Shown here: piece by piece, positions 10,925 to 18,510 of the stretch | Layout: every line of letters starts with the position of its first letter | How positions within the stretch are numbered: position 1 is the stretch's first letter | Source: Pseudomonadota bacterium | GTDB lineage: Bacteria; Pseudomonadota; Gammaproteobacteria; Burkholderiales; Burkholderiaceae_C | Length of the DNA stretch: 39,964 bases | Direction of reading: 5' to 3' | Assembly: GCA_021808525.1 (NCBI GenBank) | Contig: JAKBBK010000024.1 | Coordinates: 1-39,964, forward strand | Notes under the pieces: model-generated | The model's database searches: none | Seen by the model: only the letters and a program-made list of their open reading frames with translations | Told to the model about the DNA's origin: nothing | Program-made: the position numbers and the translations under genes

Positions 10925-10952
10925 ATTATGTTGGTCCGCCCCGACTTGTCGT
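10925..10952 (-). promoter_or_regulatory. Promoter of porin-ABC-marR operon
   Basis: Minus-strand -35 ACGACA (10947-10952) and -10 CATAAT (10925-10930) with a 16-bp spacer. The -10 has the same hexamer and the same offset to the LysR-type box as the lig promoter. Predicted start near 10918. Confidence 0.6.
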
Positions 10953-10971
10953 AGAGGGTCGGCTGCGCTAT

Positions 10972-10992
10972 CAGCTATCGCGTTTCGATATG
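10972..10992. promoter_or_regulatory. LysR-type operator upstream of the porin operon
   Basis: On the minus strand an imperfect palindrome contains TATC-N7-GATA, giving the T-N11-A pattern of LysR boxes. It matches the box at 18490-18510 in 17 of 21 positions and is centred about 64 bp upstream of the predicted transcription start, the classic place for a LysR recognition site. Confidence 0.7.
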
Positions 10993-11118
10993 AGGGTTGT
11001 CCCTGAGAACGGCCCGCCGCGGGAATGCCCCAAGGCACCCCGATCCATTGGCCCTTGAGCAGCCACGGCCTTGGAACCCTGCGTAGGATTCGAGCTCTGG
11101 CTTGGATATCCGGAACCC

Positions 11119-12648
11119 ATGGGAAATCCGCAGACACTCCTGAGCTACAGGCAACTCTTCTACCTGGCGCTCGCAAACCTGGGTCTGCAGGCCGCCGGCA
11201 CCTTCGAGGTGAACAACGCCAGCGGCCTGTTCAAGTTCCTCGGCGCCTCCGACCAGCAGGTGAGCTGGCTGTGGCTGATTCCCCCGCTCGCGGGCCTGAT
11301 CGTGCAACCCTTGCTGGGCCAGGCCAGCGATCTGCTGCATACGCGCCACGGCAAGCGAATGCCCTATATCTACGCAGGGGCGATGCTGAGCTGCGCGAGC
11401 CTGCTGCTGCTGGCCTTCTCGGAAGCCCTGTGGCTGACCTCGGTCCTGGTGCTCCTGCTGAGCTGCAGCATCAACTGCTCCACCGAAGGCCTGCGCTCGC
11501 TGATCGGGGACATCACGCCCAATCGGCAGAAATCCAGGGCTTTCGCGTGGCAGGCGCTTTTCGGTTCCCTGGGCGCGATGCTGGCCGGAACCATTCCCTG
11601 GTTGCTCCACGCCACGAATCTCCTCGTCAAACCCAGCGAGTCCGGCTTCAAGATTCCTGCCGTTCTCAAGGTTTCGCTGTTCCTCGGCGCCCTGATCCTG
11701 TTCCAGACGGTGTCATCGATGCTGTGGCAACTCCGCGACAAGGACCCGGGTTCCCCGCAAGCCGCGAGGGCCTCCGGTTCCATCCCCGGGTTCTGCGCCC
11801 GCCTGGCGCGGGAGCTGTACGGCAACATGCGCCAGACCCCCCAGGTGATCCGGCGCCTGTTCCTGGTGCAGATGCTGACCTGGGCCGGGTTGTTCTGCGT
11901 GTGGCTGTATTTCGGACTGGCCCTGGCCCAGCACATCTACGGGCTTCCACCGGGTGCCGACGTGTCCATCGATTCGAAGCACCAGGCCCTGCTCACCAGC
12001 GGGGTGATCCAGTCGGGAATCTGCTTCGCCATCTACCAGTTCGTGGGCGTGATCTACACCCTGGCCCTGCCCTGGCTGGCCGAACGATTCGACCCCAACC
12101 GGGTGCATGCATGGTCCCTGCTGGCCGGCGCCGCGACCCTGCTGGGCCTGCCCTTCCTGCACGACATGCGGGCCGTGTATGGCGCAATGCTCGGGCTGGG
12201 GATCTTCTCGGGCAGCCTCAACACCCTTCCCTACGCCATCGTGGCGGCCGAGATTCCGCCCCGGAACATGGGTGCCTGCCTGGGCATTTTCAATATCACC
12301 ATCACGGTGCCCCAGATCGTGTGCGGCCTGGTCATCGGCCCACTGGACCGCGCGCTGTTCGGGAACCAGGCCATCCACGTCATCGCGCTGGCCGGTGCGC
12401 TGCTGGGCGCCGCCGGCCTGCTGCTTCTGCGCCAGCGGGGCATGCGCATGCCTCCCGGCCTGCGCGAATGCCTTCGCCGGCGCCTGCTCAGCCCTGCGAG
12501 GCCAGCTCCTTCTCCAGGCGATCCAGCACACGGTAGCAGGGCAGCACCTTGGCCACGCTGGATTCGGGCTCGCGGCCCTCGCGGATGGCGGCGAAGAACT
12601 CCCGGTCCTGCAATTCGATGCCATTCATCGACACGTCCACCTTGCTGA
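11119..12648 (+). CDS. MFS transporter, SLC45/GPH sugar-transporter-like
   Basis: About 509 residues from ATG 11119; an in-frame TTG at 11071 adds 16 weaker residues. Roughly 12 membrane helices. The loop between helices 2 and 3 reads QPLLGQASDLLHTRHGKRMPYI, the SLC45/GPH version of the MFS motif (usually S-D-R-x-x-x-x-G-R-R-R-P), and the first helix region has AGTFEVNNASGLFKFLGA. The natural protein probably ends near residue 455-460 (LRQRGMRMPPGLRECLRRR). The remaining tail overlaps ligC on the other strand for 161 bp, is proline/arginine-rich and looks like an antisense translation, so the stop may have been lost or frameshifted. Cargo unknown; sugar transport is the family norm, but the site between two aromatic operons suggests checking aromatic or oligolignol-derived glycosides. 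Confidence 0.8.
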   Translation: MGNPQTLLSYRQLFYLALANLGLQAAGTFEVNNASGLFKFLGASDQQVSWLWLIPPLAGLIVQPLLGQASDLLHTRHGKRMPYIYAGAMLSCASLLLLAFSEALWLTSVLVLLLSCSINCSTEGLRSLIGDITPNRQKSRAFAWQALFGSLGAMLAGTIPWLLHATNLLVKPSESGFKIPAVLKVSLFLGALILFQTVSSMLWQLRDKDPGSPQAARASGSIPGFCARLARELYGNMRQTPQVIRRLFLVQMLTWAGLFCVWLYFGLALAQHIYGLPPGADVSIDSKHQALLTSGVIQSGICFAIYQFVGVIYTLALPWLAERFDPNRVHAWSLLAGAATLLGLPFLHDMRAVYGAMLGLGIFSGSLNTLPYAIVAAEIPPRNMGACLGIFNITITVPQIVCGLVIGPLDRALFGNQAIHVIALAGALLGAAGLLLLRQRGMRMPPGLRECLRRRLLSPARPAPSPGDPAHGSRAAPWPRWIRARGPRGWRRRTPGPAIRCHSSTRPPC

Positions 12649-13450
12649 CGTCGATGGCCTGGTCCTTGCCGTCCACGAGGTCGTCGTAACGCGCGATGTA
12701 CGTGCCGTTGTCGCAGATGTAGCGGAAGAATGTTCCCAGCGGGCCGTCGTTGTTGAAGGAAAGCGACAAGGTGCAGATGGCGCCGCTGCTGCTCCTGAGC
12801 TGGATGCTCATGTCCATGGCGATGCCCAGCTGCGGGTGGATCGGCCCCTGCACCGCGTGGGCCTGCACGATCTCCCCCCCTGATTGCCAGGCGAACAGGT
12901 CCACGGTGTGGGCGGCGTGGTGCCACAGCAGGTGGTCGGTCCAGCTGCGCGGCTGCCCCAGGGCATTCATGTTGCTGCGCCGGAAAAAATAGGTCTGCAC
13001 ATCCATCTGCTGCACCCGCAGCTCGCCCGCCGCGATGCGACGGTGCACCCACTGGTGGCTGGGATTGAAGCGCCGCGTGTGGCCGACCATGGCCACCAGG
13101 CCGCTGCGTCGCTGCTCGTCCACCACCGCCTGCGCGTCCTCCAGGCTGTCGGCCAGGGGGATCTCCACTTCCACATGCTTGCCGGCGCGCAGGCATTGCA
13201 GCGCCTGCGAGGCATGCATCTGCGTGGGCGTGCACAGGATCACGGCGTCGACCTCGGGCAGCGCGAGGCTGTCGGCCAGGTCGGTGGTGGCGTGCGCCAC
13301 GCCGTACTTGCGGGCCACTTCGCGGGTCTTGTCGAGCTCGCGCCCGACCAGCGAAATCACCTCCACGCCGTCGATGGCGCGGATGGCATCCAGGTGCTTG
13401 ATGCCGAAGGCGCCGGCTCCGGCCAGCGCGACCTTGATGGTCTTGCTCAT
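12488..13450 (-). CDS. ligC: 4-carboxy-2-hydroxymuconate-6-semialdehyde dehydrogenase (LigC/PmdC)
   Basis: 320 residues from ATG 13450 (overlaps ligB stop, ATGA). It belongs to the Gfo/Idh/MocA oxidoreductases: nucleotide-binding [13 protein letters not shown] near residues 11-23, [11 protein letters not shown] around 78-88, and the active-site stretch [14 protein letters not shown] (about 181-194). The enzyme oxidises the hemiacetal form of 4-carboxy-2-hydroxymuconate semialdehyde, the ring-fission product of protocatechuate, to 2-pyrone-4,6-dicarboxylate with NAD(P)+. The order ligA-ligB-ligC matches pmdABC of Comamonas-type operons. It is the last gene of the operon and overlaps the tail of the convergent MFS gene by 161 bp. 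Also called pmdC in Comamonas. Confidence 0.92.
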
Positions 13451-17334: not shown

Positions 17335-17350
17335 GTCCTTGCCTCCGGGT

Positions 17351-18376
17351 TCAGAGTCCGCGCGCCTTCAGCGCGGCATCCAGGCGCGGGTACACGCGCC
17401 GTGCGTTGTGTTCGTAGATCTTCGCGCGCTGCTGCGGGTCGATGGCCGCGACCTCGATGTAGCGCCGGGTGTCGTCGTAGTGGTGCCCGGTCAGCGGGTC
17501 GATGCCGCGCACGGCGCCGATCATCTCCGAGGCGAACAGGATGTTGTCCACGGGGATCACGCGGGTCAGCAGGTCGATGCCCGGCTGGTGATATACGCAG
17601 GTGTCGAAAAAGATGTTGCCCAGCAGGTGCTCCTGCAGCAGCGGCTTTTTCAGCTCCTGCGCCAGGCCGCGGAATCGCCCCCAGTGGTAGGGAACCGCGC
17701 CGCCACCGTGCGGAATCACGAATTTCAGGGTCGGGAAATCCTTGAACAGGTCCCCGGTGAGGCACTGCATGAAGGCCGTGGTGTCGGCGTTCAGGTAGTG
17801 CGCGCCGGTGGTGTGGAAACAGGCATTGCAGCTGGTGCTCACGTGCACCATGGCCGGGATGTCGTACTCCACCATCTTCTCGTAGATGGGATACCACCAG
17901 CGATCGGTCAGCGGGGGCTCCTTCCAGTGCCCGCCCGAGGGGTCCGGATTGAGGTTGATGCCCACGAAACCATAGTCCCGCACGCAGCGCTCGAGCTCGG
18001 GAATGCAGCTGCGCGGATCCACGCCCGGCGACTGCGGCAGCATGGCCGCGCCGATGAAATGCTCGGGAAACAGCTGGGAGACGCGGTGGCAGAGCTCGTT
18101 GCAGATGCCCGCCCAGGTGGAGCTGGTGTGGAAGTCGCCGATGTGGTGCGCCATGAAACTGGCGCGCGGAGAGAAGATGGTCAGGTCGCTGCCGCGCTCG
18201 CGCATCAGGCGCAGCTGGTTGTTCTCGATGCTTTCGCGCAGCTCGTCGTCGCTGATGCGCAGGTCGGCCACCCTGGGGCCGAGCTCGGGCGTGGCGAGAT
18301 GGTCGATCTGCGCCTTGCGCCATTGCTCCAGCGCCTTCGGCGCGGTGGTGTAGTGGCCGTGACAGTCGATGATCAT
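17351..18376 (-). CDS. ligJ: 4-oxalomesaconate hydratase (LigJ/PmdE)
   Basis: 341 residues from ATG 18376. An amidohydrolase-fold enzyme that adds water to 4-oxalomesaconate to give 4-carboxy-4-hydroxy-2-oxoadipate. The start [19 protein letters not shown] has the HxH metal site (His6, His8). [24 protein letters not shown] and [18 protein letters not shown] supply further ligands and substrate residues, and [12 protein letters not shown] the late loop, all typical of LigJ. It is the first gene of the operon; a promoter (18443-18471) and a LysR-type box (18490-18510) lie just upstream. Equivalent to pmdE. Confidence 0.93.
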
Positions 18377-18442
18377 GCGGAGGTCTCCAGGAAAGTTCTC
18401 GGCGCGCAGGGCCGACGCTCATGGCAGCCTGAGTCTTGGTCG

Positions 18443-18471
18443 ATTATGGCAAGCCCCCATGCCCCGGCCAA
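18443..18471 (-). promoter_or_regulatory. Promoter of the lig (protocatechuate 4,5-cleavage) operon
   Basis: Minus-strand -35 TTGGCC (18466-18471), 17-bp spacer, -10 CATAAT (18443-18448). Predicted start near 18436, about 60 nt before the ligJ ATG. The -10 is identical to that of the porin operon. Confidence 0.6.
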
Positions 18472-18489
18472 GGCCGTCCGCCGCGCTAG

Positions 18490-18510
18490 CAGCTATCACG
18501 AATTGATATG
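18490..18510. promoter_or_regulatory. LysR-type operator upstream of the lig operon
   Basis: Minus-strand palindrome with TATC-N7-GATA, centred about 64 bp upstream of the predicted lig start. It also covers the last codons and stop of the lysR gene. Its distance to the -10 (47 bp between left edges) is exactly that of the copy at 10972-10992. Confidence 0.7.

Follow-up and report, generated by a model that had tools for sequence, protein, structure and literature searches.

A predicted LysR-type operator shared by a protocatechuate 4,5-cleavage operon and a channel/ABC uptake operon in a relative of Thiomonas

The DNA analysed here is a stretch of 39,964 nucleotides (the window), contig JAKBBK010000024.1 of assembly GCA_021808525.1, and lies inside a draft genome of 3.21 Mb (144 contigs, 90% complete). 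It carries a lig operon for protocatechuate 4,5-cleavage, a lysR gene upstream of and collinear with that operon, and a second operon encoding an outer-membrane-channel-like protein and a Liv-type ATP-binding cassette (ABC) transporter. The same sequence element, or box, stands before both operons at the same distance from the predicted promoter and is kept in relatives, which suggests that uptake and breakdown of protocatechuate are very probably switched on together by one LysR-type regulator. The nearest named relatives of the LysR protein belong to Thiomonas records, for example Thiomonas sp. FB-6, and to unclassified Proteobacteria metagenome-assembled genomes. The features of the locus are the following:

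18496 to 19410, minus strand: LysR-type regulator, with both domains of such regulators present (HTH_1, 1.3e-21; LysR_substrate, 1.6e-33)
18486 to 18511, minus strand: predicted lig-operon operator, CCAT-N11-ATAGCTG-C-TAG, overlapping lysR at its 3' end, stop codon included
18443 to 18471, minus strand: predicted lig promoter, TTGGCC-17-CATAAT, 9/12 to consensus
17351 to 18376, minus strand: amidohydrolase family (family match), probable 4-oxalomesaconate hydratase by its place in the cluster
16642 to 17334, minus strand: LigK, above the curated cut-off of its model
15677 to 16636, minus strand: 6-phosphogluconate-dehydrogenase-like protein with DUF1932 (domain match)
14710 to 15918, minus strand: 4-sulfomuconolactone-hydrolase-like amidohydrolase, below the curated cut-off
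14307 to 14750, minus strand: LigA, protocatechuate 4,5-dioxygenase alpha subunit, above cut-off
13447 to 14307, minus strand: LigB, class III extradiol dioxygenase beta subunit, above the subfamily-model cut-off
12488 to 13450, minus strand: probable ligC (dehydrogenase), named from its place at the operon end, which is kept in relatives
11071 to 12648, plus strand: major facilitator superfamily (MFS) gene, between the lig group and the channel/ABC group
10968 to 10993, minus strand: predicted channel/ABC uptake operator, TCAT-N11-ATAGCTG-A-TAG, from sequence and conservation
10925 to 10930, minus strand: predicted -10 of the uptake operon, CATAAT, with a poorly matching -35 region, CTACGA
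9850 to 10854, minus strand: Phenol_MetA_deg family, outer-membrane-channel-like (family match)
8458 to 9786, minus strand: ABC solute-binding protein (SBP), Peripla_BP_6 (family match; start 9714 was used in the SBP searches)
7704 to 8510, minus strand: LivG-type ATPase, below the equivalog cut-off
6979 to 7854, minus strand: LivF-type ATPase, below the equivalog cut-off
6047 to 7090, minus strand: LivH/UrtB-type permease, below cut-off
4998 to 6245, minus strand: LivM/UrtC-type permease (family match)

The protein at 14710..15918 is a probable 2-pyrone-4,6-dicarboxylate hydrolase, and the true start of its open reading frame probably lies downstream of the annotated one. The Phenol_MetA_deg family protein, called a porin in an earlier reading of this DNA, is presumably a channel. 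Among solved structures, the LysR protein has no match at E 1e-20 or better.

That sequence-only reading had singled out two 21-mers, 10972-10992 and 18490-18510, as one LysR-type box with identical promoter geometry before two operons, and its observations stand: 17 of their 21 positions are identical, both lie on the minus strand in the same orientation relative to their own gene, and each is 47 bp from CATAAT. The C of CAT is 62 bp from the C of CATAAT at both places (10992 to 10930; 18510 to 18448), and lysR ends inside one box, its stop TGA (18498-18496) falling within 18490-18510. The common element is longer than the 21-mer, covering 10965-10993 and 18483-18511, and reads CATATC-N7-GATAGCTG-N-TAGCGC in both. 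The T-N11-A pattern is also there (T 10990/A 10978; T 18508/A 18496); it lies off the axis of the palindrome TATC-N7-GATA that had been taken as its core, and the motif then supplied has to be corrected to CAT-N11-ATAGCTGNTAG. With the transcription start placed 7 bp past the -10, the common element spans about -74 to -47 and the lig operator listed above about -75 to -50; as in LysR-type sites, the T-N11-A is centred near -65. The poor -35 of the uptake operon would suit a promoter that depends on an activator.

Directly upstream of the uptake-side box (window 10993-11004, minus strand) there is a conserved repeat resembling GGG-N4/6-C(C/A)CT, found in the same place in other Thiomonas. GGG precedes the box in 18/18 uptake-side sites, and the repeat pattern is not seen at lig-side sites; the stretch is possibly the site of a second regulator.

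The significance of the element depends on how it is written. The window has two copies of TATC-N7-GATA where shuffled sequence would give 0.02, and the assembly as a whole has no others; a reversed-pattern control gives an equal count, so that by itself the 8-base core carries no genome-wide significance. We rejected TATC-N7-GATA as a motif on that count and because relatives outside the genus do not conserve its second T. The longer pattern CATNNC-N7-GATAGCTGNTAG has two exact copies in the 3.21-Mb assembly, none with one mismatch and two with two mismatches. The box is thus not scattered over the genome, which the sequence-only reading had named as an outcome that would speak against it. 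No further regulon members emerged in this genome: there is no 1-mismatch place, the total at up to three mismatches (27 places) is at the level of the reversed control (29, available as a total only), and the two 2-mismatch places (L166, L167) have no CATAAT-like hexamer at the right distance within 72 bases.

We then consider the congeneric set of 28 genomes, our own included, in which LysR presence was defined as a match at E 1e-40 or better; the gene is present in 21 of them. A scan with TATC-N7-GATANCTGNTAG, allowing up to one mismatch, returned 42 matches in 22 of the 28 genomes. Exact copies occur in 20 of the 21 LysR-bearing genomes (the remaining one, G020, has a 1-mismatch copy at the lysR end) and in 0/7 of the LysR-less ones, where a single 1-mismatch match was found in G009, with no pathway genes in the surrounding 12.5 kb. 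Of the 42 matches, 39 belong either to the lysR/lig promoter or to the uptake side, the off-target ones being G009:C191, G026:C145 and G026:C161. The reversed pattern gave no match in any of the 28 genomes. That the similarity arose by chance, or reflects a structural feature such as a lysR terminator, can be all but dismissed: it is true that in the assembly the 8-base core and its reversed control are equally frequent, but the extended element is free of control matches, no terminator-like site was found in 18300-19600, and spacing and sequence are both kept in relatives.

The uptake-side sites of G012 and G019 escaped the scan pattern through CATGCC in place of CATATC; with them, the alignment comprised 23 sites on the lig side, from 21 genomes, and 18 on the uptake side, from 17. 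All 41 have a CATAAT, GATAAT or CACAAT hexamer 61 or 62 bp from the C of CAT. Conservation is concentrated in the 28 bases of the box, with a mean information of 1.88 bits on the lig side (1.05 in the 20 bases before, 0.77 in the 27 after) and 1.64 bits on the uptake side (1.05 and 0.83 in the same flanks). About 6 to 14 kb separate the two sites in genomes that have them on a single contig; MFS, channel-like and other genes vary between genomes, and the box is kept before whichever gene heads the uptake operon. It accompanies lysR and both operons through gene loss, insertions and changes of distance. In four LysR-bearing genomes the uptake-side site is missing or incomplete: no SBP match was found in G001 or G026, G025 has SBP fragments only, and G020 has a half site at a contig edge. 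One assembly, G018, holds two copies of the cluster, L152 (G018:C96) and L038 (G018:C181), with both boxes in each; its contamination is 6%, so two strains are possible.

Beyond the genus, we examined 80 named loci with LysR relatives, 60 of them with lig genes at 60% identity or more. A box match of at least 12/14 anywhere in the locus is found in 54 of the 60 loci with lig genes and in 10 of the 20 without; at 13/14 or better the counts are 47/60 and 5/20. Two loci with a partial lysR were left out of the selection on the right half of the box, ATAGCTNNTA, which occurs exactly near the lysR end in 54/78. From 42 non-Thiomonas sites chosen on this right half alone, the left half emerges as C (41/42), C (38/42), A (42/42), T (42/42), followed by a C three bases past CCAT (41/42), with an invariant T 11 bases before the A of ATAG. 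A -35-like CT(T/G)GG and then a -10 follow at fixed distances. By these alignments, the predicted LysR-type core outside Thiomonas is CCAT-N11-ATAGCT-NN-TA. The second T of TATC is kept in 3/42 of these sites, and, with the T-N11-A axis conserved elsewhere, the TATC-N7-GATA palindrome is best read as a local Thiomonas variant lying 1 bp off the conserved axis.

Could the boxes bind a different transcription factor, with the adjacent lysR a bystander? The genus offers many other LysR-like genes (18 to 71 candidates per genome in a loose first look). The explanation is nevertheless very unlikely, given that the element lies at or near the 3' end of orthologous lysR in many Beta- and Alphaproteobacterial loci, that the seven lysR-less congeneric genomes have no exact copy, and that the box has the LysR-type T-N11-A form and is placed where, according to the accessible part of PMC12710314, LigR footprints.

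At the level of the order, a scan with a tight pattern found matches in 3/300 genomes, our own included, and one match in one genome for the control; in G291, which belongs to the same family, one of two sites precedes an amidohydrolase gene, and G166 has a single site. A tblastn search of plasmids with the LysR protein found none at 60% identity among the 5000 best records (best 47.8%), and no LigR is named in the best 25 matches. Some loci depart from the common arrangement. L045, L063, L064 and L066 have LysR relatives with a variant box, GATATCTGnTAG, at the lysR 3' end, and L045 and L063 have distant LigA/LigB homologues (36-46% identity) in place of the lig operon. In L054 the lysR-end box is intact only through GATAGCT, and the lig operon is preceded by a full copy (L054:12880) some 1.9 kb further downstream, a layout that an insertion at the box might have produced.

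The overlap of box and lysR allows the DNA site to be set against the protein it encodes. We took 71 of the 80 named loci (leaving out L032, L033, L034, L035, L039, L041, L042, L075 and L091) and kept 57 sites; the 14 dropped (L048, L050, L052, L054, L077, L083, L084, L085, L092, L093, L097, L099, L100 and L110) scored under 11/14, or 11 with a full site elsewhere or none. The lysR stop codon falls inside the box in 41 of the 57 sites, in reading frames split 28, 12 and 1, and the C-terminal ends that the same DNA encodes differ by frame (HINS, HNKMR, AITKRDS and others). One box read in several frames favours selection acting on the DNA site. In 46/57 sites there is a NANAAT hexamer at a distance of 60-62 bp, against a background rate of 0.0048 (offsets 60-64) at random positions of the same loci.

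Other genes also carry the box. In 15 non-genus genomes, picked because their loci carry it, a search with up to one mismatch gave 1 to 4 matches each, 32 in total against 16 for the reversed control, and most exact matches cluster at the lysR locus; single matches away from that cluster thus carry little weight. An opposite-strand site upstream of lysR precedes TRAP (tripartite ATP-independent periplasmic) transporter genes, DctM or DctP, in L047, L053 and L071, and another Peripla_BP_6 gene in L046, L057 and L060. A box with its own -10 also stands before large proteins (L053:1732, L055:1568, L056:1682, L058:2361 and L080:1855); those of L053, L055 and L058 gave a TPP_enzyme_C match, and the gene that follows in L058 encodes POR and DUF6537 domains (2-oxoacid:ferredoxin-oxidoreductase-like). 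Unlike uptake systems thus seem, from the placement of these predicted sites, to sit under one operator.

Within Thiomonas, the transporter genes themselves offer an internal comparison. We separated SBP orthologues (76% identity or more, n=18) from paralogues (66-74%, n=11), leaving out of both counts partial matches and three matches at 36-39% identity. A clear box lies upstream of 12 of the 18 orthologues. For the orthologue of G020 a contig edge falls inside the box, with the right half and CATAAT kept, and that of G023 has only 199 bases upstream, its box being on another contig end. None of the 11 paralogous operons has a match above 11/15 in about 1.5 kb upstream, and no paralogue contig has a match in the genus scan. 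The box goes with the SBP copy that is tied to the lig cluster.

Several observations weigh against joint control. Because the lig box overlaps lysR, box and gene are bound to occur together to some extent, and the two operons are neighbours and thus partly co-inherited. The exact right half is missing near the lysR end in 24 of the 78 named loci. Within the genus, one paralogue (G021:C3) has an 11/15 match with a hexamer at 61 bp, which is within the chance range of best matches. The PDB matches of the SBP itself are named only 'putative leu/ile/val-binding protein'. The uptake-side box of G003 and G005 has diverged (13/15) and lies further upstream of the SBP gene, and two orthologous SBP operons, G017:C154 (L251) and G012:C207 (L252), have no box and stand behind a different gene; the G012:C207 operon is a second copy, and G017:C154 probably likewise. 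(The box-less operon of G017 has an AraC-family gene nearby, about 2.6 kb upstream of its channel-like gene.)

The last two points would also favour a regulator acting at the lig operon only, or a repressor, with the uptake-side copy a relic of a duplicated promoter. We consider this unlikely: the uptake-side spacing is kept in 18/18 sites, information drops from the box to both its flanks, the box stands upstream of a weak -35, which fits activation, and in relatives the same box precedes other uptake genes.

The two-operon regulon under the neighbouring LysR that the sequence-only reading had put forward is supported by phylogenetic footprinting, namely the co-occurrence with lysR, the 61-62 bp spacing in 41/41 sites and the 0/11 paralogues. 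We hold with high confidence, on this comparative evidence, that LysR 18496-19410 would be a LigR/PmdR-type activator of both the lig operon and the channel/Liv-ABC operon, which probably takes up protocatechuate. A LysR dimer would bind CAT-N11-ATAG, at about -74 to -57, with a further contact at the adjacent CTGnTAG, to about -50. The inducer would probably be protocatechuate or a ring-cleavage product, and the inducer-bound LysR would recruit RNA polymerase to the weak promoter ending in CATAAT. With the same element before the channel/Liv-ABC operon, uptake would rise with catabolism.

A wider reading, for which we see evenly balanced prospects, is that CCAT-N11-ATAGCT-NN-TA with its fixed -35/-10 is an old portable unit of Beta-/Alphaproteobacterial protocatechuate 4,5-cleavage, placed before unlike uptake systems (in Thiomonas a channel-like gene and a Liv-type ABC, in some Rhodocyclales TRAP, elsewhere another Peripla_BP_6 system), with the DNA site rather than the protein tail being kept. 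An operator at the end of the regulator gene might also act as a roadblock coupling regulator dose to occupancy. The analysis provides a candidate operator through which protocatechuate 4,5-cleavage would be regulated in Thiomonas, with variant forms in other Proteobacteria; it links an uncharacterised Liv-type ABC system and an outer-membrane-channel-like gene to this pathway; and it offers a search motif that might allow genes for the uptake of lignin-derived acids to be picked out by sequence.

Comparison with known systems begins with gene context. As for a LigR/PmdR-type regulator, lysR lies beside a 4,5-cleavage operon (LigA, LigB and LigK being above cut-off), with synteny in relatives. 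The pmd operon of Comamonas, pmdKEFDABC, presumably has the same order and kind of catabolic genes. In its accessible main text, PMC10154247, on that operon, contains neither 'lysr' nor 'pmdr'; the available main text of PMC6449761, on aromatic regulons of Betaproteobacteria, contains neither 'ligr' nor 'pmd', and the part of PMC12366328 at hand has no 'lysr'. A literature search, with most subscription journals outside it and some sources available in part, found no description of the present operator and, among the matches listed, no paper on PmdR.

LigR of Novosphingobium aromaticivorans and Sphingobium SYK-6 is likewise a LysR-type activator beside protocatechuate 4,5-cleavage genes. In N. 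aromaticivorans, according to the accessible part of PMC12710314, its footprints, upstream of two operons that it activates, cover about 30 bp between -51 and -85, and its conserved sequence is TT-N-GC-N6-TTAT. As far as that text goes, the T-N11-A core and the two sites before two operons, in a similar place, are common to LigR and our system. The complement of the LigR sequence, ATAA-N6-GC-N-AA, is close to the Rhodocyclales box ATAA-CAAAAC-GC-G-AT (7/8 fixed bases), whereas the Thiomonas box fits the published consensus less well. The same source places ligR divergent from ligK, while here lysR is collinear with the lig operon and has its stop codon in the box; and most genes of both LigR operons it describes are catabolic, whereas here the second operon is a transporter. 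The likeness to LigR is one of gene context and site rather than of protein sequence comparison, and an NCBIfam search of the window found no LigR model among the best 25 of 53 matches. The general LysR-type consensus, CTATA-n9-TATAG in the accessible part of PMC5002191, fits the same axis as the conserved core.

A second precedent is PcaQ of Sinorhizobium meliloti, which, in the accessible part of PMC4495286, controls protocatechuate catabolism together with the pcaMNVWX ABC system: there too, one LysR-type regulator serves both catabolism of protocatechuate and ABC uptake. The PcaQ pathway is the beta-ketoadipate (ortho) one, whereas ours is 4,5-cleavage, and the LysR of the window is not PcaQ by NCBIfam TIGR02424 (95.8 bits against a cut-off of 303.8). 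With LigR and PcaQ as precedents, one LysR-type protein for uptake and catabolism is already a known idea; the regulon described here, its operator and the spread of that operator appear to be new in detail.

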